Part shown: positions 33,803 through 54,404 of the stretch, in pieces
Position numbering within the stretch: position 1 is the stretch's first letter
Layout: each line of letters begins with the position of its first letter
Translations under genes and position numbers: made by a program
The notes under the pieces: generated by a model
What the model saw: only the letters and a program-made list of their open reading frames with translations
Database searches by the model: none
Told to the model about the DNA's origin: nothing
Assembly (NCBI GenBank): GCA_002773415.1
Contig: PFBD01000028.1
Location: forward strand, 78,474 to 132,877
Direction: 5' to 3'
From: Candidatus Harrisonbacteria bacterium CG10_big_fil_rev_8_21_14_0_10_49_15
GTDB lineage: Bacteria > Patescibacteriota > Minisyncoccia > UBA6257 > 1-14-0-10-44-23
Length of the DNA stretch: 54,404 nt

Positions 33803-33815
33803 CTAGTACACTGTG
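33803..33815 (+). promoter_or_regulatory. TrpR-type operator-like site c
   Basis: CTAGTACACTGTG. Confidence 0.45.
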
Positions 33816-33959
33816 ACAAAGTTAGCGGTGGTTCATTGTAAAAAGTATGAATTTTATTTCTGAGAAAAAAATTACTATTTTGCCCCTTTCTTGGTGGCGC
33901 GCCCAAAAACTTCCAAGGGCGTGCTTTGTGTTTATCTATCCGGCTGGCGTATCAATGTA

Positions 33960-33972
33960 CTAGTACACTGAT
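33960..33972 (+). promoter_or_regulatory. TrpR-type operator-like site d
   Basis: GTACTAGTACACTGATTAACTAG. Confidence 0.55.
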
Positions 33973-33994
33973 TAACTAGCCGTGTGAATGTAAA

Positions 33995-34022
33995 ACCCGC
34001 CCTTGGAGGCGGCGTTTTTGTT
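33995..34022 (+). terminator. Hairpin plus U-tract between operator d and the cupin gene
   Basis: ACCCGCCcttggaGGCGGCGTTTTTGTTTT. Confidence 0.65.
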
Positions 34023-34061
34023 TTCTGGTTTGAGTCTTTATGACTCGGAAAGGAGGAGGCT

Positions 34062-34652: not shown

Positions 34653-34691
34653 TCGCTAGCGCAACGCAAGAGGTCTTCTAGGAGATCTCAT

Positions 34692-34718
34692 GGGCCCGCA
34701 TGTACACCATGCGGGCCC
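34692..34718 (+). terminator. Hairpin downstream of the cupin gene
   Basis: GGGCCCGCAT-gtacacc-ATGCGGGCCC. Confidence 0.65.
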
Positions 34719-34783
34719 TTCTAAATTTCTAGACCGTGTAACAAAATTTGTTGGCGGGCGTTATCAAGGGTATATCTGAATTT

Positions 34784-34921
34784 ATGTCTGTTGATACTAG
34801 TCATAGTTTAAATCTGTCCCTTATCTCCGCGCAGCCACAGTTGCTCTGGGGTTTGTTTATGATGCTTGCGATGCAAATTAGCATCTGCGTATATTTTGTC
34901 GTACGCATGCGATATCCGTGA
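34784..34921 (+). CDS. 45-aa small membrane protein (below ORF-track cutoff)
   Basis: MSVDTSHSLNLSLISAQPQLLWGLFMMLAMQISICVYFVVRMRYP*; one TM helix; own terminator at 34961. Confidence 0.4.
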   Translation: MSVDTSHSLNLSLISAQPQLLWGLFMMLAMQISICVYFVVRMRYP

Positions 34922-34960
34922 ACGAGCCCTGTCCTTATTTTTAAAACAATGAGTATAGCG

Positions 34961-34990
34961 CCCGCTCACGGATTGTGAGCGGGTTTTCTT
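34961..34990 (+). terminator. Rho-independent terminator
   Basis: CCCGCTCAC-ggatt-GTGAGCGGGTTTTCTTTT. Confidence 0.8.
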
Positions 34991-35023
34991 TTATTTTCTG
35001 AGGTCACGAACCAAGGAGGGATC

Positions 35024-36001
35024 GTGGAGGCGACTGCGCTGAGAACGTGTCTGATCGGTCAGCCGGGGCGAGATCACTGGCAGGTTACCGTGCTGGATGA
35101 GCTAAGGCCGATCACGCCGGCGATGGTTGAACATGGCCGGAGGCTGATCGAGGAGTGGGCCAATGTCTTCCCGTTGGAGGAGACCTGGGTCCAGAGAGAG
35201 GCGGGTCTGCCGTCGCTGATTGTCCGGCTGGACTGCGTGCCGGACTGGGAGCGAAACGAGCTCCAGATCTGCGAAATCGACGACCGGCCACAGGGCTTTG
35301 GGGTTGGGGGTGAGATCAACTACCGGTTCAGGGAGCGCTTCGCGGAGGTGCGGGCTTCTTGGCCACGGGTGACCGTGGTCTCGTGTCCGCATCGCCGGGG
35401 TGGCGACGACTATCTGTGGACCGACGAGTGCCGGCTGGCGGAGTTGCCGGCTGACTCGAAGACACTGGTAGTCACTCGCTGTGAGCCAACTCAGACAGAG
35501 TTCTGGCCTTTGGCAGGACGGGCGATTGCGCCTGTCCGTACCGAGGGCGACAAGAGCTACGGCGAGAGGTTGGGCTGGTGGCGTACGGTCACCAGGCCAG
35601 AGGATCTGCCGGGCCTGGGCCAGGGCTTCTGCCTGAAGCCCACCCAGGGTAGCAAGTGCCAGAACATCCTCATCGTGCATCCGGAGTGCGGGCCGGGAGC
35701 AAGTGGAAACAAGAAGCGGCGGGCGGATGGCACCAAGGTCTCCGGGTACAGCCGGAACCAGGCTGAGGCGCATCTGCGTCGGCACGGCAAGCTCTTCTGC
35801 CAGCCGTTCATCGCACCAGTGATCGCAGAGCTGGCAGACAGAGGCAAGCACAACCTCCTGTACCGGATCAGCTACGCGTTCTGTCTGGCAACGCGGCAGT
35901 GGGTGTGCTTGGGCGGGACCTGGTTCGCCAGGCCATACCCGCAACTACTCCTGCACGGGGCCAGCGACGCAATCGTCGGGCCGGTCGTCATCGGCGACTA
36001 G
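35024..36001 (+). CDS. GC-rich hypothetical protein, possibly ATP-grasp-like (GTG start)
   Basis: CCAAGGAGGGATC upstream; ICEIDDRPQGFGVGGEINYRFRERF...GFCLKPTQGSKCQNILIV...LFCQPFI pattern reminiscent of ATP-grasp ligases. Confidence 0.55.
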   Translation: MEATALRTCLIGQPGRDHWQVTVLDELRPITPAMVEHGRRLIEEWANVFPLEETWVQREAGLPSLIVRLDCVPDWERNELQICEIDDRPQGFGVGGEINYRFRERFAEVRASWPRVTVVSCPHRRGGDDYLWTDECRLAELPADSKTLVVTRCEPTQTEFWPLAGRAIAPVRTEGDKSYGERLGWWRTVTRPEDLPGLGQGFCLKPTQGSKCQNILIVHPECGPGASGNKKRRADGTKVSGYSRNQAEAHLRRHGKLFCQPFIAPVIAELADRGKHNLLYRISYAFCLATRQWVCLGGTWFARPYPQLLLHGASDAIVGPVVIGD

Positions 36002-36013
36002 GCCAAAGCACTA

Positions 36014-36047
36014 GCCACTGGCAGCGCGCTTGCGCGCTGCCAGTGGC
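36014..36047 (+). terminator. Strong perfect hairpin
   Basis: GCCACTGGCAGCGCGCTTGCGCGCTGCCAGTGGC. Confidence 0.7.
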
Positions 36048-36066
36048 CAAATACTTTTTTACTAAC

Positions 36067-36849
36067 ATGTGTAGACAAATTGGAATAATCACAACTTCAG
36101 AAGAACACAAAACTCCGTTGCGGGAGATTCTTTTGGCTTTTAAAAAACTGGCGGCTAACGGCTGTATACCAAAAGGTTTTCCGCCCGGTCATGGTGATGG
36201 TTGGGGGGTGGCGACACTTGGTGAAGCAAACCCTCGCTGGCATCGCTCCGTTCAGAGTGCGGCGACAGACCCAAGTTACCTGACGCTAATTGAAGAGGTC
36301 GCTATTACTAAACCAAAAATTGTGTTGGCGCATTTGCGCAAGGCATTTATTGGCGAGGTTGCCACGGAAAATTGCCAGCCTTTTAAATTTGACGGAGCTT
36401 TGTTCGCGCATAACGGTTCTATTATTGATCATACCCGGATTCCTTTGCCGGAGGGTACTTGGCCGCAGCTAGCCGGGAATACTGATAGTGAAAAGTTGTT
36501 TGCTCATATTCGCTTGTTGCAGGCGGGGCATAAACTGACGCCGGCTAAAGCGCTGAGAGTAGCGGCACTGAATATCGCCGGTGATGGCTTGCGCTACACG
36601 GCCCTGAATACGCTTATTGCAAAAGATGGCCTGCTTTTGGGTAGTCGGATTGTGAATACGCGCTCGCTGGAGGCGGAGCAGGAGTGTCACCGGTACTATA
36701 CTTTGTACCATGGAGATAGCGGGAAAGGATTTCATATTCTATGTTCCGAGCCACTAAGAGAAATGCAGGGCATTGAGTGGAGGCTTATTCCTAACGGGAC
36801 GATCATCCAGGTACAAGAGAAAGTGGGTGTCTCTGAATTTAAGATCTGA
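36067..36849 (+). CDS. Class II glutamine amidotransferase domain protein
   Basis: MCRQIGI with Cys2, HGDGWGVATLG, VLAHLRKAFIGEV...NCQPFKFDGALFAHNGSI, NTDSEKLFAHI. Confidence 0.85.
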   Translation: MCRQIGIITTSEEHKTPLREILLAFKKLAANGCIPKGFPPGHGDGWGVATLGEANPRWHRSVQSAATDPSYLTLIEEVAITKPKIVLAHLRKAFIGEVATENCQPFKFDGALFAHNGSIIDHTRIPLPEGTWPQLAGNTDSEKLFAHIRLLQAGHKLTPAKALRVAALNIAGDGLRYTALNTLIAKDGLLLGSRIVNTRSLEAEQECHRYYTLYHGDSGKGFHILCSEPLREMQGIEWRLIPNGTIIQVQEKVGVSEFKI

Positions 36850-36904
36850 AAAAGTGGCCCCGCCTTGCTCCGAAGAGCTTGGCGGGGCGCGCGATTGGCC
36901 TCGG

Positions 36905-36997
36905 CTAGATGCCGTGGCCGACGACAAGTGCCCAGCCCAGGGCTTCATCGGGCTCTGGTCGGTCGTCAATGTCGTCGCAGTCGTTATCCAGTCCCAT
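36905..36997 (-). CDS. 30-aa acidic small ORF (below ORF-track cutoff)
   Basis: MGLDNDCDDIDDRPEPDEALGWALVVGHGI*; GGGAGA upstream; GC-rich hairpin downstream (36855-36887). Confidence 0.35.
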   Translation of the reverse strand: MGLDNDCDDIDDRPEPDEALGWALVVGHGI

Positions 36998-37091
36998 TGA
37001 TGCTTCTCCCGTTGTTGGAGTCCGACTTACCTGCGCTACCTACTGAAGCACAGGGGAGTGGTCAGACTGCTCACTACTCTGCGCTTCAACG

Positions 37092-37120
37092 AAAAAAGCC
37101 CCGGCGGCCGGGGCTTTTTT
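37092..37120. terminator. Bidirectional-type terminator
   Basis: AAAAAAGCCCCGG-cgg-CCGGGGCTTTTTT. Confidence 0.85.
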
Positions 37121-37331
37121 CTGATTTCTTAGATGATAGTCTATGCAGAAAAACTCCCGGCGGCCGCTGGGCTAAAGAAAAAGCTAAAAAAGAAGTTGTT
37201 TATCTTCGCTATCTGCATGTATGAAAATTGTATCTTAGAAAGGAGTAGCTTGTAAAGTGGATGGAGATCGGGCGCCCGCGACAAAAGCCGGGGCGCCCGT
37301 TCAGGCTACTGCCGCTCAGGCGGCAGTGTTT

Positions 37332-37532
37332 TCACAGGGCTCCCTTGCAGACGCCCTTTTCGCGGCCCCAACCTGAATGACTGGGGTCGCGGTCGGCCTC
37401 CTTCCCCCGGCCACCGTCGGGCTGAGTGCCCTTGAGCTTGCGAACGTCATGCGTTCGCGTGGCTCGCAGGCGTGCGCCGTAGTCAACGCTCGCCAGCCTG
37501 ACAAACTTGGGATGCTGTTGCTTCTTGGCCAT
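37332..37532 (-). CDS. Small basic GC-rich hypothetical protein
   Basis: MAKKQQHPKFVRLASVDYGARLRATRTHDVRKLKGTQPDGGRG; GTGGAGGTGTTCC upstream; hairpin downstream at ~37267-37300. Confidence 0.5.
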   Translation of the reverse strand: MAKKQQHPKFVRLASVDYGARLRATRTHDVRKLKGTQPDGGRGKEADRDPSHSGWGREKGVCKGAL

Positions 37533-37851
37533 GGAACACCTCCACTATGACCACTACCTAGTTCTACCTTCCTCCTTGGAAGGCAGTGGGCGAAGATATA
37601 TTTGTTACTTATATCTGCGCTCACTGACCACCAAAACAAAAACGCCTCCCGAGAGGGAGGCGTTGCTTTTTCTATGGTTAGATTCTTAGAATAAGCGAAC
37701 AAGCCTCCCAGGGGGAAGAATAAGGACGAGGCTAAGAATCAAGGCCGTGGCTGAACTATTTGGTTGGCGAACTGCGGTACTCATATGTATAGATAATAGA
37801 TTAGCGAAGGGCTATGTATCTGTCAACGGATACGTGTGGATAATTTTGTTG

Positions 37852-37925
37852 TGCGCGCTGAGGGATTCGAACCCCCGACCTACTCGGTGTAAACGAGCCG
37901 CTCTAACCAACTGAGCTAAGCGCGC
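37852..37925 (-). tRNA. tRNA-Val(TAC)
   Basis: Acceptor GCGCGCT/AGCGCGC, anticodon loop TTTACAC. Confidence 0.93.
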
Positions 37926-38085
37926 CCTACTTCGCCCTGGTATACACCAGAGCTTCGAAGGGCAAGCAATTGAATTGTGAATCATCACTGCTTGTCCCGC
38001 AAAGCTCGAGCAGATGCGAGAGCGACGTGAGAAGCTAAGCGCGCCTGTAAACAGATACTACTAAAAATAACTAGAAAATACAATG

Positions 38086-38159
38086 TGGTGCGCCCACATG
38101 GAGTTGAACCATGGATACGGATGTATAAGATCCGAGTTTTACCGTTAAACTATAGGCGC
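38086..38159 (-). tRNA. tRNA-Ile(TAT), CCA encoded
   Basis: Acceptor GCGCCTA/TGGGCGC-A-CCA, D stem GTTT/AAAC, anticodon stem-loop CGGAT-CTTATAC-ATCCG, T arm CATGG-TTCAACT-CCATG. Confidence 0.88.
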
Positions 38160-38309
38160 CCTCCTTCGCGTAAAGCTACGGAAGGGTAAGCAAGTATAAA
38201 TTAGCACAGTGAGCGGCTTGTTTCAATCCACGCATACAACACCCCAACATGCTTGCTTTGTCCGCCCTTAGCCTTGGCGTAGGAGGTAGAATGTTGGGGT
38301 GTTGTGTCG

Positions 38310-40148
38310 CTAGGAGACGGGCAGGGGTTTGAGGTCGAAGGGTTTGATGACGGCGTTGAACTCTTCTTGCTCCAGAGTCTCTTCTTCTATTAGCTTGTTG
38401 GCGATGGCGTCTAGAGCTTTTTTGCGGGAGGTGATGACTTTCTTGGCGAGTTGATAAGACTTGTGCAAGAAGTTAGAAACTTCATGGTCTATATCGGCGG
38501 CGATGGTTTCTGAGTAGTGGCGGTCGTGGTTCATTTCTCTTCCCAAGAAAACATTTTCGCCGTCGGCGTAAGTGACCGGGCCGAGCTTTTCGCTCATGCC
38601 GTACTTAGTGACCATGCTTCGGGAAAGATTAGTCGCTTCTTTAATGTCGTTAGAAGCGCCGGTGGTCAGCTCGTTAAAGATTATCTGCTCCGCGGCGTAG
38701 CCACCCATCATAGTGGCCAGCTCGGCCAGGAACTGATTCTTGGTCTTGAGCCGGTTTTCTTCAATTGGCAGCTTCATGGTGTAACCGCCGGCACGACCGC
38801 GACTGATAATGGAGATCTTATGGACCGGGTCGGCGTCCTTAAGACTGGCGGCGACGAGCGCGTGGCCGGCTTCGTGATAGGCGGTTATTTTCTTTTCTTT
38901 TTCAGAAATTATTCTGGTCTTTCGTTCCGGGCCAAGCAGAACTTTTTCAATAGACTGGAAAACGTCTGTTTGGCTGACGGTCTTGCGGTTATGACGGGCG
39001 GCGAAGATAGCAGCCTCGTTGAGCAGATTCTCTAAGTCGGCGCCGGAGAAGCCCGGAGTGCGAACAGCGACGCGGCGCAGTTCAACGCCTTTTTCCAGCG
39101 GCTTGTTGCGGGCGTGGATCTCTAAGATTGCTTCACGCTCGTCAATGTCCGGCAGGTCTATAAAGACGCGCCGGTCAAAACGGCCCGGGCGAAGAAGGGC
39201 GGAGTCTAAAATGTCAGGGCGGTTTGTGGCGGCAAGCACGATAACGCGGTTCTCGCGGTCAAAGCCGTCCATCTCTACCAAGATCTGGTTCAGGGTCTGT
39301 TCGCGTTCGTCGTGGCCGCCACCAACACCGGCGCCGCGCTGACGTCCAACCGCGTCTATCTCGTCTATGAACAAAATTGAAGGGGAGTGCTTTTTGGCGG
39401 TATTAAACGCGTCGCGGATGCGGCTGGCGCCAACACCAACAAACATTTCCACAAACTCCGAAGCGGACATATAAAAGAAGGGGACGCCACTCTCGCCGGC
39501 AATAGCGCGAGCAAGCAGAGTCTTACCGGAGCCGGGCGCGCCCATCAGCAGTACGCCGCGCGGGATCTTGGCGCCGATGTCTGTGAACTTCTTGGGGTTT
39601 TTAAGAAAGTCCACTACCTCAACCAGCTCCTGTTTTATTTCGGCCATGCCGGCTACATCTTTGAAGGTAGTCTTTTCTTTACCACCAGTAGCAGACATCT
39701 TTAGATTAGACTTGCCGAAGTTCATTACTTGGTTTTGGCCGCCTTTGGCGCCGCGGAACAGGAACCAGAAAAAACCAATAAGCAGTAAGAGCGGCAGTAG
39801 CGAAGGCAGAATCAGTCCGAGCCAGAAACGGCTGCCAGACTCTTCTTGAATTTCCAGACTGACCTGTTGCAGGGCCATTTGATCCACGCCGTAGTTGCGC
39901 AGAGTTTCGGTGATGCCAACCTCAAACTCTTTTTTGGCCTCTGCCTGAGTGCCGTCTTTGAGCCCTATCTCCAGATTGTTCCCATTGACGACTATTTTCT
40001 CAACCTGTTGTGAGTTTATCTTCTGAGCCACCTCGCCTAAGGTAAGCTGGGTCGGCTCTTCTACGGGTGTAAAAAAGAAAGAGAAGAGGAGCGCGACGAG
40101 CACTAAGGCGAAAACGGCGACTACAAAGTTTTTAACAAAATTACTCAT
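38310..40148 (-). CDS. ftsH: ATP-dependent zinc metalloprotease FtsH
   Basis: [46 protein letters not shown]...[12 protein letters not shown]. Confidence 0.98.
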
Positions 40149-43384: not shown

Positions 43385-43455
43385 CGGGCTGTCGTATACC
43401 GGTAGTATGCCTGTTTTGGGAACAGGTGGACTGGGTTCAATTCCCAGCAGCCCGA
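43385..43455 (+). tRNA. tRNA-Pro(TGG)
   Basis: Acceptor CGGGCTG/CAGCCCG, anticodon stem-loop CCTGT-TTTGGGA-ACAGG, T arm CTGGG-TTCAATT-CCCAG. Confidence 0.92.
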
Positions 43456-43497
43456 CAAAAATTGACACCAGCGCGTGAAATGCCGCAAAATGAGGGA

Positions 43498-45300
43498 ATG
43501 AGATTTGAATGGACTGACCAGGAACATGCGCCGGAGTCTTTGCAAACTGTTAAGGTGCGTGATTTTGTGAAGAATGTTTGGTCTATTCGAGGATCACTAG
43601 ACACCCCCGAAGGAAGAGAAGCTTTTGACCGACTCTGCGAAGACGTTGGAAAAGACGAATTTGATGAAGGTTTCAGGCAGGGCGAAACAGAAGCATATCA
43701 GTGGGCCTTTGAAGAAATTGTTAGCCCTGAGAATCCGGACCTGAACTTAGTATCAGCTACGATTGACCTTTTGTATATCTTGCAGGGTCGTGTGGGTGAG
43801 GATGGCTCTAGGGCGGCTCACGCTGTCAAAGAACCACTCCAAAGGTTTATAGAGAGCCCGCGGGCAAACTATTTACTATCTATACAGGCAAAAGAAACGA
43901 TACGCCAGGAAAGCCTTTTCCTGGAAGATGAAGCCCTAGATCATACACTTCCAATTCGTGGAGGGAAGAGACTATTTAAGTTTGGGGATAGGCTTTTTGA
44001 ATGTGCCGAGGATGACGGTGTTAGAGTTAACGCAGTTATTAATGGTGATGAATCGGATGTGGAGCGCGAGCGGGAACTAAGAGAAATTTCGTCACTACGC
44101 TCTGTAGCTATACGCGACTTACTGACTGATTCAGACCAGGCGTTAAGCGATACAGACATCGAGAAGCAGGTCGTATTATTCCAAGATATATTTTTGCAGC
44201 CGTATATCTTGCGTGGAATAGAGGCGGATTTCGCTCATTTATCTAGTGACGACCGCTTTAATGATACTTTTAATCAGCAACGCGTAGAAAGTCGTAGTAA
44301 GAGCTACTTAAAAATTCATGAGTTATCAACACAGGAACTGTTTTACCTGATTAGATTTTTAATGACTAAATCTCAGCGTGAGGTGACAGAGCGCCTCAAG
44401 CCGTTTGCTGAAAAATTTGGGCAAGATGGACTGAGAACTTTTTTGTCTACGGGTGATGACCTTAGCTTTGGTGAGGATATTCTTGATGTTTCCGAGCGGA
44501 TGCCTGAGGATTCTGTGAGGGCTTTATTTGCGAAGTATGCAGAGATTGTTGATGCGGCTCAGTCTAGCGCGGCGTATCTGGTGGATAATTTTCCAGCTGG
44601 TGCTGCTAGCATAATCTCAGAAGAAAAGATTACACGACAGCTACTAAGTAAGGGTAAAGAGTTGTTGGCGCGCTACGAAAAAGGGGATGTTCCGGAGAAA
44701 ATTCCAGAAGAACTGGATAATATCAAGGCAGATATTTTGTTATTTGGAGCGGCCTTAAAGACGGCGGGCGAACACGAACAAATCAAGTTTGAGGATGTTA
44801 AGGGAACTGAGATTGCCAGCCTTCAGACAAAGGAAATACCTCCTGCGGATCGTGAAGCGATGATTGCGCTATTCAAGCAGATTCGCGAGAATGACAAGTA
44901 CAGTCCGGAGCACCTTGCCGCTCTAGAACAGGGCTTCAGAGAAGCGCTGGAGAAAAATATCGGCCGCTTTTATGTTGCGAAGTACAACGGCACCGTGCTT
45001 GCCTTTGTGCGCTTTGAAGACCTGCCAAATGGAAATGTCTATGCCGGTTCATTTACGGCCAGTCAGGATGTTCGCGGATCCACTATTGGCTCGGCCTTGA
45101 TTGAAGAAGCGTTTATGCGGGAGAATGCAGATAGAACGCTGGAGGCAGTCGTATTTTCCGGTAACCCAAGACTAATGGAGTATCACACGAAAGTACTTGG
45201 ACATGAAATTCTACGCGACAAAACCCTAAAAATTGGCGATGCCACTTACTTTAAGATGATTCGTCGACCGCAGGGTGCGACTAAGAGCCTGGCTGCTTAG
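43498..45300 (+). CDS. Large protein with C-terminal GNAT acetyltransferase domain
   Basis: C-terminal FYVAKYNGTVLAFVRFED...TASQDVRGSTIGSALIEEAF; ORF track start lies inside tRNA-Pro. Confidence 0.75.
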   Translation: MRFEWTDQEHAPESLQTVKVRDFVKNVWSIRGSLDTPEGREAFDRLCEDVGKDEFDEGFRQGETEAYQWAFEEIVSPENPDLNLVSATIDLLYILQGRVGEDGSRAAHAVKEPLQRFIESPRANYLLSIQAKETIRQESLFLEDEALDHTLPIRGGKRLFKFGDRLFECAEDDGVRVNAVINGDESDVERERELREISSLRSVAIRDLLTDSDQALSDTDIEKQVVLFQDIFLQPYILRGIEADFAHLSSDDRFNDTFNQQRVESRSKSYLKIHELSTQELFYLIRFLMTKSQREVTERLKPFAEKFGQDGLRTFLSTGDDLSFGEDILDVSERMPEDSVRALFAKYAEIVDAAQSSAAYLVDNFPAGAASIISEEKITRQLLSKGKELLARYEKGDVPEKIPEELDNIKADILLFGAALKTAGEHEQIKFEDVKGTEIASLQTKEIPPADREAMIALFKQIRENDKYSPEHLAALEQGFREALEKNIGRFYVAKYNGTVLAFVRFEDLPNGNVYAGSFTASQDVRGSTIGSALIEEAFMRENADRTLEAVVFSGNPRLMEYHTKVLGHEILRDKTLKIGDATYFKMIRRPQGATKSLAA

Positions 45301-46069
45301 AAAAATCTGCTTGTACAAATGGTGTCGCCGTCTCCCAGAGCGACTCGAATAAAGTGCGGTGCATTTGGCTGATGAATGGGTCGTCGACGATCACGCCGAT
45401 GCGAGCTTTTTCGTTATAGCTAAGAAAACTTACTTTTTGATTATAAATCTGCACGATGCTACTAAAACGTTTCTGGGTAAGGGGAATTAACCTGATGGTG
45501 ACAAGCTGGTTTTTCAGCTTGTCTTCAAGGCACCGAACATAGTTCGTGTCTGGCCCGAGAATACGTTTATGAATACCGCGCCTGACTCGCTCGTTTATAT
45601 AGCGAGCGTTTTCCGCTGGTAGGTACTTGTCCATCACCTCGTGGTCAAGATAGGTGAGCACCTCGTCGCCGGACTTTAGGGTATCATCTGCCAGAATGCG
45701 AACCGCCTTGGCGCCTTCAAAGTACTGCACACCCGGCTTGCCGGAGATGAGATTAAAGTCTGAGGTTAAGTTGTTGATTATTCCGCCCAGCGCCTCTTGG
45801 GCGACTTTGGCAGACTGCTCTTTCTGCTCGGCTAGCTCCTTCAGGCGCAGGGGGTGGGCCGGCTCAAAAAGCAACACCTTTTGCTTGCTACTCTTTTTAA
45901 CTAAGCCAATAGCTACCAACTCGTCCAAAACCTTGTAGGTCAGCCCGCGCTTGAGGCCGGATTTTTTACTAATATCACTGGCCGACAGGGCGCCATTTTT
46001 AAGCAATATTTCGTAAACCCTGGCTTGATCCGGGGCCAGCCCGGCTTTGGTAAGAGTGTTTTCGTACAT
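45281..46069 (-). CDS. TrmB-family transcriptional regulator
   Basis: AGLAPDQARVYEILLKNGALSASDISKKSGLKRGLTYKVLDELVAIGLVKK. Confidence 0.88.
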   Translation of the reverse strand: MYENTLTKAGLAPDQARVYEILLKNGALSASDISKKSGLKRGLTYKVLDELVAIGLVKKSSKQKVLLFEPAHPLRLKELAEQKEQSAKVAQEALGGIINNLTSDFNLISGKPGVQYFEGAKAVRILADDTLKSGDEVLTYLDHEVMDKYLPAENARYINERVRRGIHKRILGPDTNYVRCLEDKLKNQLVTIRLIPLTQKRFSSIVQIYNQKVSFLSYNEKARIGVIVDDPFISQMHRTLFESLWETATPFVQADFSKQPGS

Positions 46070-46229: not shown

Positions 46230-46258
46230 TTGACAAATCTTGTAAATGGTGCTATAGT
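46230..46258 (+). promoter_or_regulatory. Sigma-70-type promoter of the Csx3/MoxR locus leader
   Basis: TTGACA-17 nt-TATAGT. Confidence 0.75.
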
Positions 46259-46264
46259 GGTTGT

Positions 46265-46870
46265 AGAACCTGAGAAGAGGGTTGGTCCACAAACAAGTTG
46301 CTGGAGCAATCGCTTAACAGGAAAAGTTGAAGAAATGTCAGTGGATGCGTGCTTTTCACCCCTGACCCTGACTAGATAGCTTTACTCAGAGCATCTAGCG
46401 GGGCGGTAACTGCGCCGGCAAGGCAGTAAAGAGGAGGGAGTGGGAGCAAAATTAGACATCTGATGGTATTTCTCGCCTTGACCAATCGTTGGTCTGGCAG
46501 TTGTGGGAGCGGCTCGGGAACGTCTGGCTGGAGAGCGAGACCGGAACGGGTAAAACCACGACAAAACGGTTCAGGAACTTTTCTTTTGAGGAGAGCCCCG
46601 CTTCGCATAAAGCTACGCAGGGTAAAAGTTCCTAGGGAGATCCGCTGGACAGAAGGACCTAAACCCGCCTTGTGTCCAGAAATCTCTCTAGAGATAGAGA
46701 GTTGTACCTTAACAACTGAATAGAAGCGTACTAAACACAGGCGATACTCGGGGATTATATACCGGAGTGCCTGTTGGCCGTAGTGCGTGGATGCGGTATG
46801 GATATGTTGGATTGCTACACACAATACAATTGATTCACGAAACCCCGAGCTCATAAAGAGCTCGGGGGTG
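46265..46870 (+). ncRNA. Candidate large structured RNA/leader, unassigned
   Basis: No plausible CDS; many hairpins (GACCAA-tcg-TTGGTC; GGAACTTTT...AAAAGTTCC; CTGGACAG...GTGTCCAG; ACAGGC...GCCTGT; CCCCGAGCTC-ataaa-GAGCTCGGGG) and possible long-range pairing 46279-46288 with 46655-46666. Confidence 0.5.
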
Positions 46871-46936
46871 GTGAGTCCGTTGTGGACTCAACTGTGGCGC
46901 CAACAGTATAAACGGCGTGGACAAAGGAGGCTAGTC

Positions 46937-47515
46937 ATGGCGAGCAAGTTCGTCTTGGCCGGGCCGCCTCGGTCCGGGAAGTCCTGCTTGAGGGAGGGCC
47001 TCAAGCAGGCGATACGGCGCATCCCTGGGGCGCCGTACCCGTACGTAATCACGGCCTGCCCCGACGGGGAGGGGTCGTGGTTCCAGGAAACCGTCAACGC
47101 GGATCCGGCGTTGGCGGCGGCGTGCAAGGCGGCCTACAAGGCCAAGTTCACGCCGGAATTCGTCGAGCGCATCAAGACTTCGGTCGAGAGGTGCTCGCTC
47201 GAGCTGACGCTCGTCGACATCGGAGGCATCCCCTCCGTTGAAAACGAGCAGATCTGTTCGGGGGCCACTCACGTGGTGATCCTTGCCGGAGACATGAGCA
47301 AGGTTGCCGAGTGGCGCGAGTTCGCCCGGAAGGTCGGGCTTGTCGTGGTGGCGGAGATTCACTCCGACTATCACGGCACGCAGGACATGATCGAGGGCGT
47401 TGGCCCCGACCAGGTCCTGCGCGGCGCCGTGCACCACCTTGAAAGAGGTGAACCGGTGGCCGACCGGCCGATGGTGGCGGCACTGGCGAGCTGGCTGGTG
47501 ACGCTCGCCAAGTAG
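46937..47515 (+). CDS. P-loop NTPase resembling the AAA partner/domain of Csx3-AAA proteins
   Basis: FVLAGPPRSGKSCLREGL (Walker A), ACPDGEGSWFQE, FTPEFVERIKTSVERCSLELTLVDIGGIPSVENEQICSGATHVVILAGD, EWREFARKVGL; AAAGGAGG upstream. Confidence 0.75.
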   Translation: MASKFVLAGPPRSGKSCLREGLKQAIRRIPGAPYPYVITACPDGEGSWFQETVNADPALAAACKAAYKAKFTPEFVERIKTSVERCSLELTLVDIGGIPSVENEQICSGATHVVILAGDMSKVAEWREFARKVGLVVVAEIHSDYHGTQDMIEGVGPDQVLRGAVHHLERGEPVADRPMVAALASWLVTLAK

Positions 47516-47645
47516 TGTGAAGCCAAATGACGCGATCCTTGCTGGTGCGTCATTTTCTGTTCTACAAAGACCCTAAAAAAGGTCGCCTCTTTCCAGCGGC
47601 ATGGCTGGAACAGCAAGAGAGGTTTTGTCTCTTAAAGGAGGAAGC

Positions 47646-47963
47646 ATGTCCTTGTACAACGTGGACATCGAGAAGCAGGAGGGTGGCCTCCTGATTCGGG
47701 TGAGCTTCGGCTCACCCGCACAGAATGACCAGATCGTCCTCGAGACGGCCACCCGTCTCGAGGAGCTCGAGGCCGCCGGCGAGCTGTCCGGTGGTGGCGT
47801 GGCCCGCGTGAACGGGCCCGCATCCCTGCCGGTGGCGATGGTGCTCGCGCACCACCTCGCTCACCGGTTCACGGGGGTCGCGTGCTTCGACCCCAAGATG
47901 GGGAAGTACGTGGTCGCCATCGCCCACGGCGGACAGTACGCCGTGGGCGACCTGATCGACTAG
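47646..47963 (+). CDS. csx3: Csx3/Crn3-like CRISPR-associated ring nuclease homologue
   Basis: 105 aa; NGPASLPVAMVLAHHLAHRFTGVACFDPKMGKYVVAIAHGGQYAVGDLI matches the Csx3 C-terminal pattern; directly follows the AAA partner. Confidence 0.75.
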   Translation: MSLYNVDIEKQEGGLLIRVSFGSPAQNDQIVLETATRLEELEAAGELSGGGVARVNGPASLPVAMVLAHHLAHRFTGVACFDPKMGKYVVAIAHGGQYAVGDLID

Positions 47964-48142
47964 TTCGGTCAGGAAAACCTCTGAGCAATCAGAGTTGCTG
48001 CAAAATCCGGCAGTGTAAATAAAGGTAAACAGTTTTTGTCCCCGTCGTGAACTGAAATCATAATGGAGAGCCACGCGGAAGCAGAACCGCTAGGACACGA
48101 GCACGACCGGCTCATGTCGAAATGGTTAGGTCAGCGCCTGAA

Positions 48143-48176
48143 GGGAGCATGGTTCGCCCAGCTCCCTTCAGCAAAA
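48143..48176 (+). terminator. Hairpin downstream of the csx3-like gene
   Basis: CTGAAGGGAGC-atggttcgccca-GCTCCCTTCAG. Confidence 0.5.
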
Positions 48177-48315
48177 TTTACATTTTGAGTTGAGATTCAT
48201 GCGATGGATTTTATTAACATTTCGCACTGGGGAGCGCGATCCATCGCATAAATCTCTTCTTAAAAGTCGTCCCGCGTGGGGCTCAAGAGGAGAAAATAAA
48301 AAGGAGGGTGCCACG

Positions 48316-48801
48316 ATGTGGCGGCTCAAATCAGGGGAGATGGTGGTAGACCGGCATCGGTCACACATCCACCCCACGGTAATGCCGCACCTGCCTGCGG
48401 CACTCGCCCGAATTAGTTCACAGGGCAGGGACTTTCTCGTTGAATCGGTCGACTTCGGTCGGCCAATTGGCGAGACGATCTGCGTTCCCACCGGACCGAG
48501 GGACGAAATCGTATATGCAGTTCGGTCCGGACGTCGGGGGCTCACGCGGTTTGTCAAAAACCGCGCACCGCTTCCGACTTCAGCCGTCAGAGTTGTCCTG
48601 AAGAGAGACGATGCTGGCGGCTATTTTGTTCTCTTGACCGCCTTCCTGGGGCCACCGGCACCGCCGGAACCATGGGACCGAAATACGATTCGCACGCGCG
48701 ATGAACTCGCGCGAGCAGTCGCCTTCTGGAATACTCACGCCCTTGTGTGGGGGTATGAGCCGAGTATTGCGGGCACGGAAACCAAACGTTGCCCGTGGTA
48801 A
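48316..48801 (+). CDS. GC-rich hypothetical protein with C-terminal AFWNTHALVWG motif
   Basis: AAAAAGGAGGGTGCCACG upstream; DEIVYAVRSGRRGLTRFVKNR...VRVVLKRDDAGGYFVLLTAFLGPPAPPEPWDRN. Confidence 0.65.
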   Translation: MWRLKSGEMVVDRHRSHIHPTVMPHLPAALARISSQGRDFLVESVDFGRPIGETICVPTGPRDEIVYAVRSGRRGLTRFVKNRAPLPTSAVRVVLKRDDAGGYFVLLTAFLGPPAPPEPWDRNTIRTRDELARAVAFWNTHALVWGYEPSIAGTETKRCPW

Positions 48802-48825
48802 CACGGGCGGGAAGGAGGGGCTGCA

Positions 48826-49419
48826 ATGCCCACAACACAAGAGCTGGCGGAGCGTCTTAGGACGCTTGTACCAGGGCGTCCGATTTCGAAGGCGATTGAG
48901 CTCGTGCTCGAGCGCCACGGCGATCGGACCCGGCTCGGAGGCGAGCCAGAGGTCAACCATGTTCTCCGCGTTGGAATCGCGGGGGCCGAGTACGCTTTGG
49001 CAAATTTGCCGGAACAGCTCGAGACCCTCGCGCTGTGCGGCGTGCTCCACGATGTTCTCGAGGACACGCCGACAACCGACACGGAGCTCGTGAACTTTTT
49101 CGGCGGTGAGGTCGCGCGAGTCGTTCGCGCGCTTTCGCACGTCGAAGAGGAAGAACCCGAGGCGATCTACTACGCCCGGGTGGCTGCAGGCGGACAGCTG
49201 GCAGTTGTCATCAAGCGTTGCGACCGCTTAGACAACTTCGGCTGTTTGCACGCTGCGCCGGAGAAGTTCCAGCGCAAGGTGCTGCGTCTGCAGCGAGCGG
49301 CGTTACCGATTTGGCGGTCGATGGACCCAGAGGGGTACCCGCTGATCGTGGCGGCGCTCGATGATCTCGACCGTCGCCTCAACCACAACCCCTGCGACAA
49401 GCAGGGAAAGGGAGTCTGA
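48826..49419 (+). CDS. HD-domain hydrolase, SpoT/Mesh1-like
   Basis: EVNHVLRVGIAGAEYAL...LCGVLHDVLEDTPTTDTELVNFFGGEVARVVRALS...YYARVAAGGQLAVVIKRCDRLDN. Confidence 0.8.
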   Translation: MPTTQELAERLRTLVPGRPISKAIELVLERHGDRTRLGGEPEVNHVLRVGIAGAEYALANLPEQLETLALCGVLHDVLEDTPTTDTELVNFFGGEVARVVRALSHVEEEEPEAIYYARVAAGGQLAVVIKRCDRLDNFGCLHAAPEKFQRKVLRLQRAALPIWRSMDPEGYPLIVAALDDLDRRLNHNPCDKQGKGV

Positions 49420-49420
49420 A

Positions 49421-50629
49421 GTGGAAAAGCTCCAACAGGCCGTAGCTTTGGCGGCCAAGATCCAGAGCATCGTTTCCGACGTGCTGGCGCGGCACATCGG
49501 ACGCGAAGACGTCATCCGCGCCACACTGCTGTCGCTCGTATCGGGCCGGCCGGCGTTCTTCCTCGGATCTCCCGGGGTGGACAAGACCGGCACAGTCCAA
49601 GCGCTCGCCGGTCGGATCACGGGTGCGTCGTTCTACGACGCGCTCATGCCGACGGTCGCCTCGGCCGATCAGCTTCTCGTGGAGAGCACCTCCATCGAGG
49701 AGACGACCGATGCGGGCGGCGCCAAGCAGATCCGCACTCGGGATCAGCTTGGTCGGGCTGCGGCTGCCCACATCGTCTTCGCAGACGAGATCTGGAAGGC
49801 CGAGCCCCGCGTACTCAACACGCTCATCGACCTGTCGAAGGGCGATGGCGTGCGGCACGACGGGATGCTGGTCAAGACACCGCTTCTGGCGTTCTTGTCG
49901 GCGTCCAACGAGTTGCCGGAGTCCGAGGGCAACCTCGGAGCGGTCTGGAGTCGCATGACGATTCGCGTCGTCGTGCAGCCTCTCGACCGTAGTGGCAAGA
50001 TCGGGCTGGTCAAGGCCCGGCTCGGTCGCGACCGACAGTCGGCGCAGACGGCAACCTCGGCCCAGCTCACGCTGAACGAGGTGACGCTCCTGCGTCAGGC
50101 TCGACCTTTCGTGAAGATCCCGGACGACATCGTCACGGTGGTCCTGGACATCCTCCAGGAACTACTCGACGACAAGTCCGCCGACTTCGCGTGGGCATGG
50201 GCCGACGACCGGCGGTTCGGCCGTTTGTTCGACATCCTGCAGGCGAAAGCGCTGCTGGAAGGTCGGCAGACGGTCGGCAAGCAGGACCTCGCGGTCCTGG
50301 AGTGGCTGCTCTGGGACACCCCCGAGCAGATTCCGGTGGTCAAGGCGAAACTCGCCCCGTATTGTCGGACACCACTCAACGACGCGCAGGAGGTAGTCGA
50401 TACCCTCCTGTCGCCGACCGGAACCGTGCAGACGGTTTGCGGCGGCGATCGAGGCAAGGGCGTTCCGGCCATCCAGCAGTGCGAAAGCGCTCTGGAGGAG
50501 TTGGTGCGCCTGCGCTCCGACGCAAGTGACGCCGCCATGCAGGCGGCGATCGACGCGCTCACCGCGCAGGTGAACGCGAAGAAAGCGGACGTGATCGCGG
50601 TGGTCACGGGCGCCAAACGGACTGCGTAA
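49421..50629 (+). CDS. MoxR-family AAA+ ATPase (GTG start)
   Basis: IGREDVIRATLLSLVSGRPAFFLGSPGVDKTGTVQALAGRI...HIVFADEIWKAEPRVLNTLIDLSKG...LLAFLSASNELPE. Confidence 0.88.
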   Translation: MEKLQQAVALAAKIQSIVSDVLARHIGREDVIRATLLSLVSGRPAFFLGSPGVDKTGTVQALAGRITGASFYDALMPTVASADQLLVESTSIEETTDAGGAKQIRTRDQLGRAAAAHIVFADEIWKAEPRVLNTLIDLSKGDGVRHDGMLVKTPLLAFLSASNELPESEGNLGAVWSRMTIRVVVQPLDRSGKIGLVKARLGRDRQSAQTATSAQLTLNEVTLLRQARPFVKIPDDIVTVVLDILQELLDDKSADFAWAWADDRRFGRLFDILQAKALLEGRQTVGKQDLAVLEWLLWDTPEQIPVVKAKLAPYCRTPLNDAQEVVDTLLSPTGTVQTVCGGDRGKGVPAIQQCESALEELVRLRSDASDAAMQAAIDALTAQVNAKKADVIAVVTGAKRTA

Positions 50630-50641
50630 GGGAGGTGCAAC

Positions 50642-52297
50642 ATGGGCGACAAGCCCAAGCCCGTCACATGGGCAGAGCTCATGGAGCTCGCGGTGACGGA
50701 CGTGGATGCCTTCGGGTGTCTGCGGTACCTCCGTCACCGCGAAGCTGTGCCGGCTATCCCGGAGCTGGCACAGAAGTCCGAGAAGAAGTTCCCGGGAGCT
50801 GAGGGGGCGCTCCTCGATCTGTACCACGGACTCTGGTCGCCAGAGCCGACGGTGCGGGACGAGGTGCCCCCGTCGAGAAGGTACTGGAAGGAGATGCTTG
50901 GCGAGACGCTGAAGTCCAGCGCTTACCAAGAGCTCCACGCCGGTACGCAGCTCTCGGAGCTAAAGTCGGTTCTCGGTACGGTGGCCATGGGCGAGTCAGT
51001 ACTTGCCCTGGTGCCGGAAGAGGACGGTGAGAAGCTCCAGGAGTTGGACAAGGCCTCCGCCGACGCTGAAGCTAAGGCGGACGAGGCAGCAGACGCTGAA
51101 TCGGCCGCGCAAGCGGCGCAGATGTTGGCGGGGGCTGCAGTTTCTCAAGCTGGGCAGGGCCAACCTAGTGGCAAGTCGCAGGGCGCAAGCTCGGGCGGCA
51201 TGACTCCGGCGCAGGCCCAGACCCGCGCGAACGAACTGGCGAATGCCGCGGCGAAGGCCAAGGCAGATGCGCAGGCGGCGCGCGAGCTGGCCGACGAGGC
51301 CGAGCTTGACGCAGAGATTCTGGCCGAGGAGTTGCTGGGCAAGCCCGGTAGCGACAAGGCGCAAGAAAAACTGCGTGAGCTGACGCGGATCGGCCTCCAG
51401 GCCGTCCGCAACGCCCAGGAAAAAGTCGAGAAGGCCTCGCAGACTATCGACTCCTGGGGACTGGATGAGGCGGAGCTGATGCGCACTGGCATTCCCGAGT
51501 CACTCGGGTTGCTGGAGCGTATGCGGCGCAACACCTCGTTCCAGAAGTTCGCTGCCCTGCTCGGACGCATCCGCAAGATCGCGGCTCGCAAGGCACGATC
51601 CAAGGTGAGCGGTGAGGGCGCACGGATCACGACGGTGGAAACCGGCCGTGATCTACGGCGTGCCTTGCCGAGCGAACTCGTCGCGCTCTCTCACTCGGTT
51701 CCGGCACTACGCGCGAAAGCGCTGATGCGCTGGGCCAAGGGAGAGCTCGCTCTGCGCGGCCAGCAGGCCAAGCAGAAACTCGGCCATGGTCCGGTCGTCG
51801 TCTGCGAAGACGGTTCCGGCTCCATGGATGGAGCAAAGCTGCAGTGGGCTAAGGCGCTTTCACTCGCCCTCGCACACTACGCCAAGCTCCAGAAGCGGTC
51901 GTTCGGGTGGATATTGTTCGACTATGGCGTCAGGCTGAGTCGGACGTATCCACAAGGGCGGCTGTCTGCCGAGCGGCTGCTCGAGATTGCAGAATCTCGA
52001 GCAGGCGGAGGAACAGACTTCGAGGCGCCGCTTCGGAAAGCGTTCGAGATGATTCGCGAGCAAGGCCTGAAGAAGGCCGACATCGTGTTCATCACGGACG
52101 GCGACTGCGCCGTCTCGGAGAAGTTCCTCGGTGAACTGGCAGCGATCAAGAAGGAGTTGGAGGTCAACATCATCGCAGTTCTCTGCGACGCTGGCCACAA
52201 CGCCGAGGCGACCGTTGCGAAGTTCGCCGACATTATTGAAACAGCTTCGTCCTTCACGGCTGAGGAGGCGGAGAGCAAGGTGTTCAGCCACTTCTAG
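50642..52297 (+). CDS. VWA-domain protein (MoxR partner, CoxE/ViaA-like)
   Basis: GPVVVCEDGSGSMDGAKLQWAKALSLALAHYAK (MIDAS DxSxS), GGGTDFEAPL, DIVFITDGDCAVS. Confidence 0.88.
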   Translation: MGDKPKPVTWAELMELAVTDVDAFGCLRYLRHREAVPAIPELAQKSEKKFPGAEGALLDLYHGLWSPEPTVRDEVPPSRRYWKEMLGETLKSSAYQELHAGTQLSELKSVLGTVAMGESVLALVPEEDGEKLQELDKASADAEAKADEAADAESAAQAAQMLAGAAVSQAGQGQPSGKSQGASSGGMTPAQAQTRANELANAAAKAKADAQAARELADEAELDAEILAEELLGKPGSDKAQEKLRELTRIGLQAVRNAQEKVEKASQTIDSWGLDEAELMRTGIPESLGLLERMRRNTSFQKFAALLGRIRKIAARKARSKVSGEGARITTVETGRDLRRALPSELVALSHSVPALRAKALMRWAKGELALRGQQAKQKLGHGPVVVCEDGSGSMDGAKLQWAKALSLALAHYAKLQKRSFGWILFDYGVRLSRTYPQGRLSAERLLEIAESRAGGGTDFEAPLRKAFEMIREQGLKKADIVFITDGDCAVSEKFLGELAAIKKELEVNIIAVLCDAGHNAEATVAKFADIIETASSFTAEEAESKVFSHF

Positions 52298-52307
52298 GAG
52301 GGGTGAG

Positions 52308-53900
52308 ATGTCTGACCAAGCCGCGCCTCTCGTCGTTACGCTGACGGCCGAACATGGCCAGAAGTGGGACGCCGAGAAAAAGCGCGGGGCGATCGGTACG
52401 TATCGTCCCGCCGGATCGGGCCGACGGAGCCCGTTCCACCTGGTTTTCATGCCTGACGGTGTGGAGCCGGGTCAGCAGGTCCGTCTGACCCTACGCGAGA
52501 TCAAACCTGACAGCGCAGGGCACATGATGTATCGCGGATCGCCGGCGCCGGTCGCGTACGCCGAAAAGTGGCGCGACAACGGTGACGGCACGGCGAGCCG
52601 GGTGACCATCTCGACCAACTGGCTCTTGCAAGAGAGCGAGGAGGGAGTGCTGGAAACTCGGCCACTCGCAACCCGCGAATGGGACCCGCCGTCGGTTCGG
52701 CACGATCTCAAGGTCGTCTGGGGAGTTGATCAGGTTTCGTCCTTCGTTGAGAGGGTTGCGACCAAGATCTACACCCAGCAGGCCGAAAAGGTTACTGCCG
52801 GACAGATGGTCTGGGTTAATACTGGGACACGAGAAGAGCAGGGTGCACCGGAGCAGCTTCCCGTCTTGCAAGTGAAGGTGGGATACGGCGACTTCGGAGG
52901 ACACAAGCTCGAACTCGTGTGGAGCGACGCATGGACTCTGACGGCGGACTGCTACTTCGCAGTGAATACCGAGTACACTCGGGAAAACACTTCGTACGGC
53001 AAGCTGCCGAAATGGGTTCAGGCGCAACTCCTCAACCAGTACCCGACATGCGGTTCGTGCGGCACGGTTCGTTACAACAAGGAGGAAACTTCTTGGTGTG
53101 CGACTTGCCGACCGTATCGCGAAACCGAGCAGTGGATTGTGGCCTCGCTGACTCCGAAGCGCAAGCTGGAGCTTTCAGTAGAGGCCGCGAAGCTACTCGG
53201 CGCAGGCAGTGCCCTTGAAGGTGAGTTGGGTGTGGCGATTCTCAAGGCCACTCTCGACCACATCGGGGACAGTTGGAGACGGGATGACTTCGTCCAGCGG
53301 TGGACCGGCTATGGCTGGTACTACTTCTGCGATGACGCAGTCTACGGATCCAAGCTCTCTCCGGCTGCACTCCAGATTCTCCAGTTCCTGCCCCATGCAA
53401 GTGGTGACGGAATGGTGGAGATGGTGGCGTGGCTCAGCGGGGGCCACAAGCAGAACTTCTCTGACTACTACGCGGCAGCGCAGGTCAGAGGAGAGCGAGT
53501 CCAATTGCCAGTTGGACTTCAGAACGTCGTAGAAAATCTGGCAGCAGGCAGGACAGGTTTGGCAGAACGCCTTCGTGGCGGCGAGCCGGATCGGCTTCTG
53601 GCTCTGCAGGAGTATCGGGGCTTGGGCGACAACATCGACCGAGATTCCCGAGAATTCAGGGAGGTGGGTAATCTTCTGGTCGACGGCGACCAAGATTATG
53701 CCAAGGCCCTGAGGCGCATTCGTGGTCTTCCGTCAAGGAGGCCCGCGGTGATTGCCGCACCTGCGCCACAACAAGGCCGGGCAGCCGCTTGGGAAGAGCC
53801 GGATGTTCCGCGCCACCAAGAGATGCCTGCTGCGCTCGATCCGTGGCAACAACAGCTTGCAGCCCTCAAGGCGAAGCTAGACAAAGACAAGCCGTCGTAG
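52308..53900 (+). CDS. GC-rich protein with CxxC...CxxC cluster, third component of the MoxR-VWA module
   Basis: GGAGGGGTGAG upstream; YPTCGSCGTVRYNKEETSWCATC; immediately follows the VWA gene. Confidence 0.7.
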   Translation: MSDQAAPLVVTLTAEHGQKWDAEKKRGAIGTYRPAGSGRRSPFHLVFMPDGVEPGQQVRLTLREIKPDSAGHMMYRGSPAPVAYAEKWRDNGDGTASRVTISTNWLLQESEEGVLETRPLATREWDPPSVRHDLKVVWGVDQVSSFVERVATKIYTQQAEKVTAGQMVWVNTGTREEQGAPEQLPVLQVKVGYGDFGGHKLELVWSDAWTLTADCYFAVNTEYTRENTSYGKLPKWVQAQLLNQYPTCGSCGTVRYNKEETSWCATCRPYRETEQWIVASLTPKRKLELSVEAAKLLGAGSALEGELGVAILKATLDHIGDSWRRDDFVQRWTGYGWYYFCDDAVYGSKLSPAALQILQFLPHASGDGMVEMVAWLSGGHKQNFSDYYAAAQVRGERVQLPVGLQNVVENLAAGRTGLAERLRGGEPDRLLALQEYRGLGDNIDRDSREFREVGNLLVDGDQDYAKALRRIRGLPSRRPAVIAAPAPQQGRAAAWEEPDVPRHQEMPAALDPWQQQLAALKAKLDKDKPS

Positions 53901-54063
53901 CGATGGCTGTCAAGAAAGGAGATTGTATCACGATAGGTTCCCAGCTGGACTAGCCACCGGCGTAGACATTCCCAAAGTGGCACTTCGGGCCGGATGACAA
54001 AACACACCCTGTCATCCTGCGGGTTTCGCTGGCTCGAGAGAGTCGACGGAAAGGGTAGCGTGT

Positions 54064-54217
54064 GGGCGGGGGATGGTTTCGACTATCTCCCGCTCGCTCA
54101 AAAATATTTGCCCGTTAGCGGGCTGGGGATAAATTCAACGGATGGCGATAGATTCTAAAAAATCTCTCTCCTCTAACCATCCGATGATTTAGTCTCCGGC
54201 CCACTGCCGGGCAAAAA
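54064..54217 (+). ncRNA. Candidate structured RNA or 3' UTR before the terminator
   Basis: 12-bp hairpin GGCGGGGGATGG-TTTCGA-CTATCTCCCGCT; GCCCG-ttag-CGGGC; CGGATGG...CCATCCG; CCGG-cccactg-CCGG. Confidence 0.4.
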
Positions 54218-54221
54218 AACA

Positions 54222-54252
54222 CCCCGCGCCCTCCTTGGCGCGGGGGTTTTTT
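54222..54252 (+). terminator. Rho-independent terminator closing the 46-54 kb locus
   Basis: CCCCGCGCC-ctcctt-GGCGCGGGGGTTTTTT. Confidence 0.9.
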
Positions 54253-54293: not shown

Positions 54294-54404
54294 TGCCCTC
54301 GTAAGCAGAGCTTGCGAAGGCGGCATTCGGAAAATATACAAATGCTTCGCATTTGAACATTTCTCCTCACTTGCCCTCGTAAGCGGGTAGCTTGCGAAGG
54401 CGGC
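54294..54404. repeat. Two copies of a palindromic repeat about 80 bp apart
   Basis: GCCCTCGTAAGC...GCTTGCGAAGGCGGC at 54297-54324 and 54374-54404. Confidence 0.75.

Follow-up and report, generated by a model that had tools for sequence, protein, structure and literature searches.

At the end of a contig from Candidatus Harrisonbacteria bacterium CG10_big_fil_rev_8_21_14_0_10_49_15 (PFBD01000028.1, positions 78,474 to 132,877), we analysed a window of 54,404 nucleotides that carries an island of seven co-directional genes (46937-53900, + strand). These encode, in order, an AAA/P-loop protein, a Csx3/Crn3-like ring nuclease homologue, a phrog_23674-family protein, an HD hydrolase, a MoxR ATPase, its VWA partner and a CxxC protein. 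The module is horizontally mobile among Patescibacteria, and its whole sense transcript, coding parts included, is evidently selected to fold. With somewhat less than even confidence, we read it as a Patescibacterial MoxR-vWA conflict or stress module that has co-opted accessory parts of type III CRISPR systems, operates free of CRISPR and is borne on a folded mRNA.

Gene order and protein families

The island has a G+C content (GC) of 0.62, compared with 0.50 in the remainder of the window. It lies between a sigma-70 promoter (46230-46258, +; TTGACA-17-TATAGT with a TG extension, score 11/12) and an intrinsic terminator (54222-54252, +) formed by a 9-bp all-G-C stem and a T run. Promoter-like sites scoring at least 9/12 numbered three in the 9.2 kb scanned, with 1.8 expected. 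Both signals had been proposed in a first-pass annotation of the same DNA, together with a head-to-tail order of seven genes and a Shine-Dalgarno-like site for each; all seven open reading frames (ORFs) were recovered, each preceded by a purine-rich stretch of that kind. The same annotation had suggested that a hairpin at 48143-48176, within structured intergenic RNA (47964-48315, +; folding z-score (z) = -4.3 and -5.5 in two computations), might split the operon into two transcripts. The 11-bp hairpin does exist, but it lacks a T tract and stands among very many others in a strongly folded transcript. Nothing therefore shows that the operon is split, and a dividing terminator at this site was rejected.

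The AAA/P-loop protein (46937-47515, +, 192 aa) is of the Csx3-associated type, as had been claimed: it matches the PADLOC Csx3-AAA profile (E = 1.7e-58) and is 53% identical to the AAA part of the Nostoc III-B Csx3-AAA protein. The Csx3 homologue (47646-47963, +, 105 aa) passed the gathering score of Pfam PF09620 (E = 2.2e-5, 24.6 bits versus 21), which upholds its earlier assignment; it scored 70.7 bits with the PADLOC Csx3-AAA profile, missed the NCBIfam equivalog cut-off (23 versus 55.4), and is 55% identical to the standalone Nostoc III-B Csx3. Residues H73, D82, K84 and H94 are invariant among the genomes that carry the island (carriers), and the catalytic H60, D69 and H80 of A. fulgidus Csx3 (numbering of PMC7371418) correspond to H73, D82 and H94. 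In the A. fulgidus enzyme R71 helps to cleave cyclic tetra-adenylate (cA4) (PMC7371418). Its position is occupied by Lys in all six carriers, and also in the Nostoc and Synechocystis III-B homologues, and the counterpart of H57 is shifted by one position in the carriers' Csx3.

The HD protein (48826-49419, +, 197 aa) is a SpoT/Mesh1-type hydrolase without a synthetase domain. It passed Pfam HD_4 (E = 2.2e-7, 31.1 bits), matched TIGR00691 spoT_relA over residues 24-152 (3.2e-13) and contains the NH, HDVLED and DRLDN motifs, so that the HD...ED and DxxxN signatures of the predicted family are present. The adjacent MoxR (49421-50629, +, 402 aa, GTG start) and VWA (50642-52297, +, 551 aa) proteins also form the pair that had been predicted, passing Pfam bpMoxR (71.2 bits) and VWA_2 (36 bits, E = 1.2e-8), respectively. 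They resemble RavA (110 bits) and ViaA (57 bits) and did not reach the equivalog cut-offs of those families (681 and 500 bits).

The remaining two products are less readily placed. The phrog_23674-family protein (48316-48801, +, 161 aa; E = 8.2e-22) was modelled by AlphaFold2 with a predicted local distance difference test (pLDDT) score of 94.5; it has no Pfam family, and its predicted structure had no PDB match. It is also encoded by jumbo phages (~40% identity) and was detected in 13 of the 287 Patescibacteria sampled. In loci L007, L010 and L008, the domain is fused at the C-terminal end of a second AAA and a degenerate Csx3; in L035 and L036, the protein adjoins a MoxR-VWA pair of another kind. 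A BECR-type RNase was suspected from its sequence and rejected, as neither PDB nor viral folds matched at E < 0.001. The CxxC protein (52308-53900, +, 530 aa, ATG start), the third core component, is beta-rich, with a weakly OB-like N-terminus, a CxxC zinc ribbon and a variable C-terminus (pLDDT 79). It is present in all carriers, although its length varies; no Pfam family and no PDB fold at E < 0.001 was found for it beyond a weak resemblance to OB domains.

Outside Patescibacteria, to which the relatives of this genome belong, the nearest relatives of the Csx3 and AAA proteins lie in cyanobacterial III-B loci, adjoined by an HD protein of ~195 aa. In one of these (Nostoc, L019:9291-10576), an intact standalone Csx3 stands beside a Csx3-AAA fusion that lacks the Csx3 catalytic histidines, an arrangement that suggests a division of labour between catalysis and regulation. 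Cas10 (PF22335) was found in none of the 16 complete or partial carriers, the positive controls having worked; this includes the window's own assembly (884 kb, 91% complete), where a type III locus might have accounted for the ring nuclease, and supports the claimed independence of CRISPR, although arrays were not searched directly. Cas1 was absent from the own assembly; two of nine carriers have it. No SMODS cyclase was detected in the own genome or in any of the nine carriers. The five GTDB carriers, the own genome among them, lack the RelA_SpoT synthetase domain, and four further carriers have it.

The Csx3 and HD proteins may degrade second messengers here, and the module may serve immunity. 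Two predicted signal-degrading enzymes, with no synthetase in their own genome, could also constitute a scavenger or counter-defence module that destroys cA4 or alarmones from foreign elements or from the immune system of a host bacterium; phage ring nucleases are known as anti-CRISPRs (PMC12409355). Such a module would have no need of a MoxR-VWA motor, however, and the locus is on a chromosomal contig, with no delivery signal seen. We consider this explanation distinctly improbable.

Folding of the operon RNA

When the window was tiled, the mean z was ~-0.5 before ~46.2 kb and ~-2 to -7 thereafter, coding sequence included. Other loci likewise had folded islands and unfolded flanks, with z of ~-4 in island windows versus ~-0.3 to -1 in flanks, and a sample of 120 kb-blocks from the own genome gave a median of -0.76 and no long run. 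Under a codon-shuffle null that preserves the protein and its codon usage, genes in the islands of the window, L005, L007, L010 and L036 had z of ~-3 to -13 and flanking genes ~0. A stricter null that also kept codon-boundary dinucleotides placed island genes at -3.6 to -11 and flanks at -0.2 to -1.2. Across 47 genes from ten loci, the excess over codon shuffles was -7.40 kcal/mol per 100 nt for the sense strand versus -4.84 for the antisense. The excess was the stronger on the sense strand in 46 of the 47 (Wilcoxon p = 2.9e-9, which is indicative only, as neither the genes of one locus nor homologues from different loci are independent observations).

A count independent of any folding program gave 481 tetraloop hairpins with stems of at least 5 bp on the sense strand, compared with 340 expected. 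Strict Watson-Crick 6-bp stems were too sparse, and GNRA-capped hairpins were therefore recounted with stems of 5-7 bp, G-U pairs allowed; there were 58, versus 16.9 expected and a maximum of 26 in 60 shuffles. Hairpins capped by GNRA or UUCG were 3-6-fold enriched, and the most enriched loops, GCAA, GAAA, GCGA and UUCG, are classically stable in RNA.

The structure might simply follow from a GC-rich choice of codons or from inverted repeats at the DNA level, without selection on RNA. Island GC and GC at third codon positions (GC3) do exceed those of the flanks in nearly all loci, and the antisense strand is also folded beyond expectation. Synonymous shuffles, however, retain codon usage yet lose the structure, and both the excess of sense over antisense and the enrichment of GNRA/UUCG loops on the sense strand point to the RNA. 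Moreover, the GC-matched flanks of L007 had a z of -0.3, and in L005 the signal was seen at a GC of 0.42. A by-product of this kind is very unlikely, and selection on the RNA is the reading that we retain.

Conservation of individual structures was limited. In the alignment of AAA genes, only two helices surpassed all shuffles in pairing as well as in double changes. One, a 14-pair helix inside the AAA coding sequence (47383-47417, +), covaries between carriers, with 20 double changes versus 8.0 in shuffles, a number reached by 0 of 500; the other has 7 versus 2.5. The overall covariation term of the RNAalifold consensus of these genes was positive, that is unfavourable, which indicates that single structures are mostly unconserved even though structuredness is conserved. 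The CRISPR-linked csx3, AAA and HD genes of cyanobacteria gave no folding signal, one mild case aside, and the VWA gene of L017 is not structured.

The non-coding parts of the operon are folded as well. A long 5' leader (46262-46936, +) had z of -9.6 with 20 shuffles and -6.8 with 60, and a 3' segment (53901-54221, +) scored -6.5 when computed over 53901-54250. Leaders were structured in 20 of 20 loci (z -3.7 to -15.0), and a known large RNA in the window's leader was rejected for lack of any Rfam match. A degenerate candidate boxA-like antitermination motif, TGTACCTTAACAA, was spotted by eye at 46703-46715 (+) and matches E. coli boxA at 10 of 13 positions. A boxA-like core, GYTCTTTRA, occurred at 12 sites in 8 of the 20 leaders, compared with 0.68 in shuffles, and once on the reverse strand. 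These motifs suggest antitermination in the style of rRNA operons. Two TrmB-linked leaders of genome G119 (L092:1103-2026 and L093:1171-3420; z -13 to -15) are ~67% identical over 717 nt and make up a candidate family of large structured non-coding RNAs.

A folded operon that encodes Csx3 raises another explanation, in which this protein acts on RNA rather than on cyclic oligoadenylate, binding or trimming hairpin loops, with the operon RNA as its substrate or regulator. A. fulgidus Csx3 is a Mn-dependent RNase whose crystal structure holds an RNA tetraloop in the cA4 pocket (PMC7371418), and Kaur et al. list Csx3 as an RNase effector in one MoxR-vWA system (PMC7159879). The enrichment of GNRA-capped hairpins and the failure to find a cyclic oligoadenylate cyclase in the carriers searched also fit. 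Folding is seen, however, in the Csx3-less loci L008, L016, L036 and L089, so that Csx3 is not the general reason for it, and we judge an RNA-directed Csx3 unlikely. Our preference remains with a co-opted CRISPR accessory protein in a MoxR-vWA module.

Spread, regulator and exchangeable cargo

Csx3, AAA, MoxR, VWA and CxxC genes occur together in the window and in L005 (L015 lies on the same contig and was counted once), L007, L009, L010 and L017, the MoxR of L017 being 28% identical to that of the window. L008 and L016 have MoxR-VWA without Csx3, and L006 is truncated by its contig end. MoxR proteins of 59-69% identity were found in only a few sampled genomes from other, distant families of Patescibacteria, and the window MoxR was missing from all of the 243 further genomes examined in its order, which include four from its family. 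Over 449 bp, the AAA DNA of the window and L009 is 80% identical. The synteny elsewhere, the absence from the order and the lack of Cas10 in carriers identify a mobile, CRISPR-independent module. The first-pass annotation had pictured a stress or immunity module controlled by nucleotide second messengers; its protein identities, the joint conservation of the neighbours as one locus and the independence of CRISPR stand, and its two transcripts found no support. It made no mention of the linked TrmB and GNAT genes, the exchange of cargo or the RNA folding across the operon. An origin on a known phage or plasmid was rejected, as only distant RavA-like MoxR matches (~24-34% identity) were obtained.

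Between Csx3/AAA and MoxR, accessory genes are swapped among loci (HD, the phrog_23674-family protein, X1, X2, X3 and PHP), and AAA2-Csx3 fusions vary likewise. L009:4142-5077, for example, has a PHP-domain phosphoesterase (Pfam 1.9e-13) in this slot. Several MoxR-VWA islands (L005:9225, L009:13406, L010:8656, L016:8159, L017:2013, L089:9037 and L056:1) encode X1, a small Rossmann-like protein (ILWxSRH...VVVAPLSVI...PLW); it was considered as a CARF or ring-nuclease protein, an idea dropped because neither Pfam, PADLOC nor PDB gave a match. A second, distinct bpMoxR-VWA pair (L035:7467-10866, L036:7021-10074 and L089:9550-11627) is linked to the phrog_23674-family protein or X1, not to Csx3. 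Its L036 and L089 copies, in loci with neither Csx3 nor AAA, adjoin TrmB and also have folded mRNA.

In the window, a TrmB-type winged-helix regulator (45281-46069, -; Pfam TrmB 1.3e-12) diverges from the operon, and beyond it lies a conserved GNAT-domain protein (43426-45300, +, 624 aa; Pfam Acetyltransf_1 6.3e-8) whose gene RNA is not structured. A divergent TrmB gene, usually followed by GNAT, accompanies all islands with enough flank except L009, L010, L016 and L017. The recurrence of an identical GNAT-TrmB-island order in other genomes ruled out an assembly chimera as the mere cause of the GC jump. Of the 16 TrmB-anchored leaders, 15 have a promoter scoring at least 10/12 at a distance of 73-234 nt from the TrmB start, and we infer that the TrmB regulator probably controls the promoter at 46230. 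Close TrmB homologues (30-45%) stand divergently beside structured islands. Among 20 less similar, generic TrmB genes there was no structured neighbour, one weak case aside, and TrmB in general was discarded as an island marker.

The window's island may be one member of a class of mobile, TrmB-linked operons in Patescibacteria, in which leader and coding mRNA are selected into GNRA/UUCG-capped hairpins, the folded RNA itself is the functional or protected object, and Csx3/MoxR-VWA is one cargo. On this wider proposal our belief and doubt are evenly balanced.

Directly past the terminator, two copies of a palindromic repeat with CCCTCGTAAGC and GCTTGCGAAGGCGGC (54298-54404) close the contig. 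Several related islands or their TrmB genes are also at contig ends (L006, L054 and L088-L094), as if the islands broke assemblies. Elsewhere in the window, between nusA and ftsH, a GC-rich stretch (31600-38500) has a long non-coding gap (31.6-34.0 kb) and contains a cupin-like gene (34062-34652), a gene at 35024 with no assigned function and a class II amidotransferase-like ORF near 36050. Its RNA was moderately structured by dinucleotide shuffles and mostly unstructured by codon shuffles. The part at 34-37 kb was not accepted as a second folded operon, as codon shuffles were unsupportive, with a weak signal in one gene.

The constant presence of the CxxC protein beside the motor, with RavA and ViaA as the nearest named families, also fits an assembly chaperone like RavA-ViaA or CoxDE. 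Such a chaperone would mature a complex that binds metal or RNA and is built around the CxxC protein; the nucleotide enzymes would adjust it to metabolism, and it would have no part in defence. The sporadic, mobile, variable-cargo spread and the genes shared with CRISPR systems fit a conflict system better, and the profile scores fall far under the RavA and ViaA cut-offs. We give a chaperone of this kind a low probability and continue with the conflict or stress module.

Proposed working and comparison with known systems

The anatomy, synteny, mobility, lack of Cas10, linked TrmB gene and RNA selection were computed; the functional steps are inferred. The TrmB-type regulator would control a strong promoter, from which RNA polymerase, aided by boxA-type antitermination, would produce one long, rRNA-like folded polycistronic RNA. 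Folding may shield this RNA from endoribonucleases, so that the cell could produce the proteins, or hold them in readiness, while its RNA is degraded during infection, toxin action or host-free starvation. In known MoxR-vWA couples, the vWA domain captures a client peptide and ATP hydrolysis releases the client altered (PMC7159879). By analogy, the constant CxxC protein may be the client or partner here, and the MoxR ring and VWA protein would capture and remodel this zinc-ribbon/OB-like protein in an ATP-dependent manner. Csx3 and the HD protein could clear nucleotide signals that set the threshold (cA4-like oligoadenylate, an alarmone or relatives), the AAA and phrog_23674-family proteins might modulate or execute the response, and the exchangeable proteins might sense or act.

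Several observations weigh against this scheme. K84 stands in place of the R71 that assists cA4 cleavage, with H57 shifted by one, and neither a cyclase nor an alarmone synthetase was seen in the own genome. MoxR-VWA occurs without Csx3 in L008 and L016 and without Csx3/AAA in L036 and L089; together with the unstructured VWA gene of L017, these loci indicate that there is no strict requirement for Csx3 or for folding. RNase resistance, finally, is a conjecture offered to explain the folding.

In a literature search of partial coverage, which is no proof of novelty, we found no description of Patescibacterial Csx3-MoxR loci; nor did a partial search yield one of pervasively folded bacterial operons, and the folded-mRNA class may be new. 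The island presents a ring nuclease taken out of CRISPR and set beside a MoxR-vWA motor. As no maker of cyclic oligoadenylate was found in its carriers, either a signal maker awaits discovery or Csx3 has another job. Folding of coding sequence across a whole operon puts a constraint of a new kind on bacterial mRNA. It flags the islands by sequence alone, accounts for their raised GC and offers a route to further islands in genomes where most genes lack a known function.

Genome-scale ordered RNA structure is a property of RNA viruses, with which the islands share pervasive folding of coding sequence through synonymous choice; here, in contrast, the folding sits in bacterial chromosomal operons, and no replicase or capsid gene was found. 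Leaders of rRNA operons combine a strong promoter, a long structured untranslated leader and boxA antitermination. The island has a strong promoter, a long structured leader and a boxA-like motif, but encodes proteins, and the motif is a sequence match alone. RavA-ViaA is the nearest MoxR-VWA pair by profile, and RavA the nearest plasmid or phage match, yet the island's scores fall far short of equivalence and its neighbours differ.

Type III-B CRISPR loci of Nostoc and Synechocystis share Csx3/Crn3 and Csx3-AAA genes (55% and 53% identity to those of Nostoc) and the HD neighbour of ~195 aa. Unlike them, the island has no Cas10, RAMP or TIGR03985 genes, its Csx3 and AAA are split, and its mRNA carries a folding signal that the cyanobacterial genes lack. 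Like the MoxR-vWA ternary conflict systems (Kaur et al. 2020, PMC7159879), it places MoxR next to VWA, has a conserved third component and a patchy spread, and varies in its accessory or effector genes; one published member of those systems, from Leptolyngbya, has a Csx3 domain (PMC7159879). It differs from these systems in its third component, which is zinc-ribbon/OB-like (no VMAP, FtsH, iSTAND or beta-propeller family was detected in the Pfam and PDB comparisons). Its Csx3 is a separate gene with an AAA partner, and the whole is Patescibacterial, TrmB-linked and transcribed into a folded mRNA.

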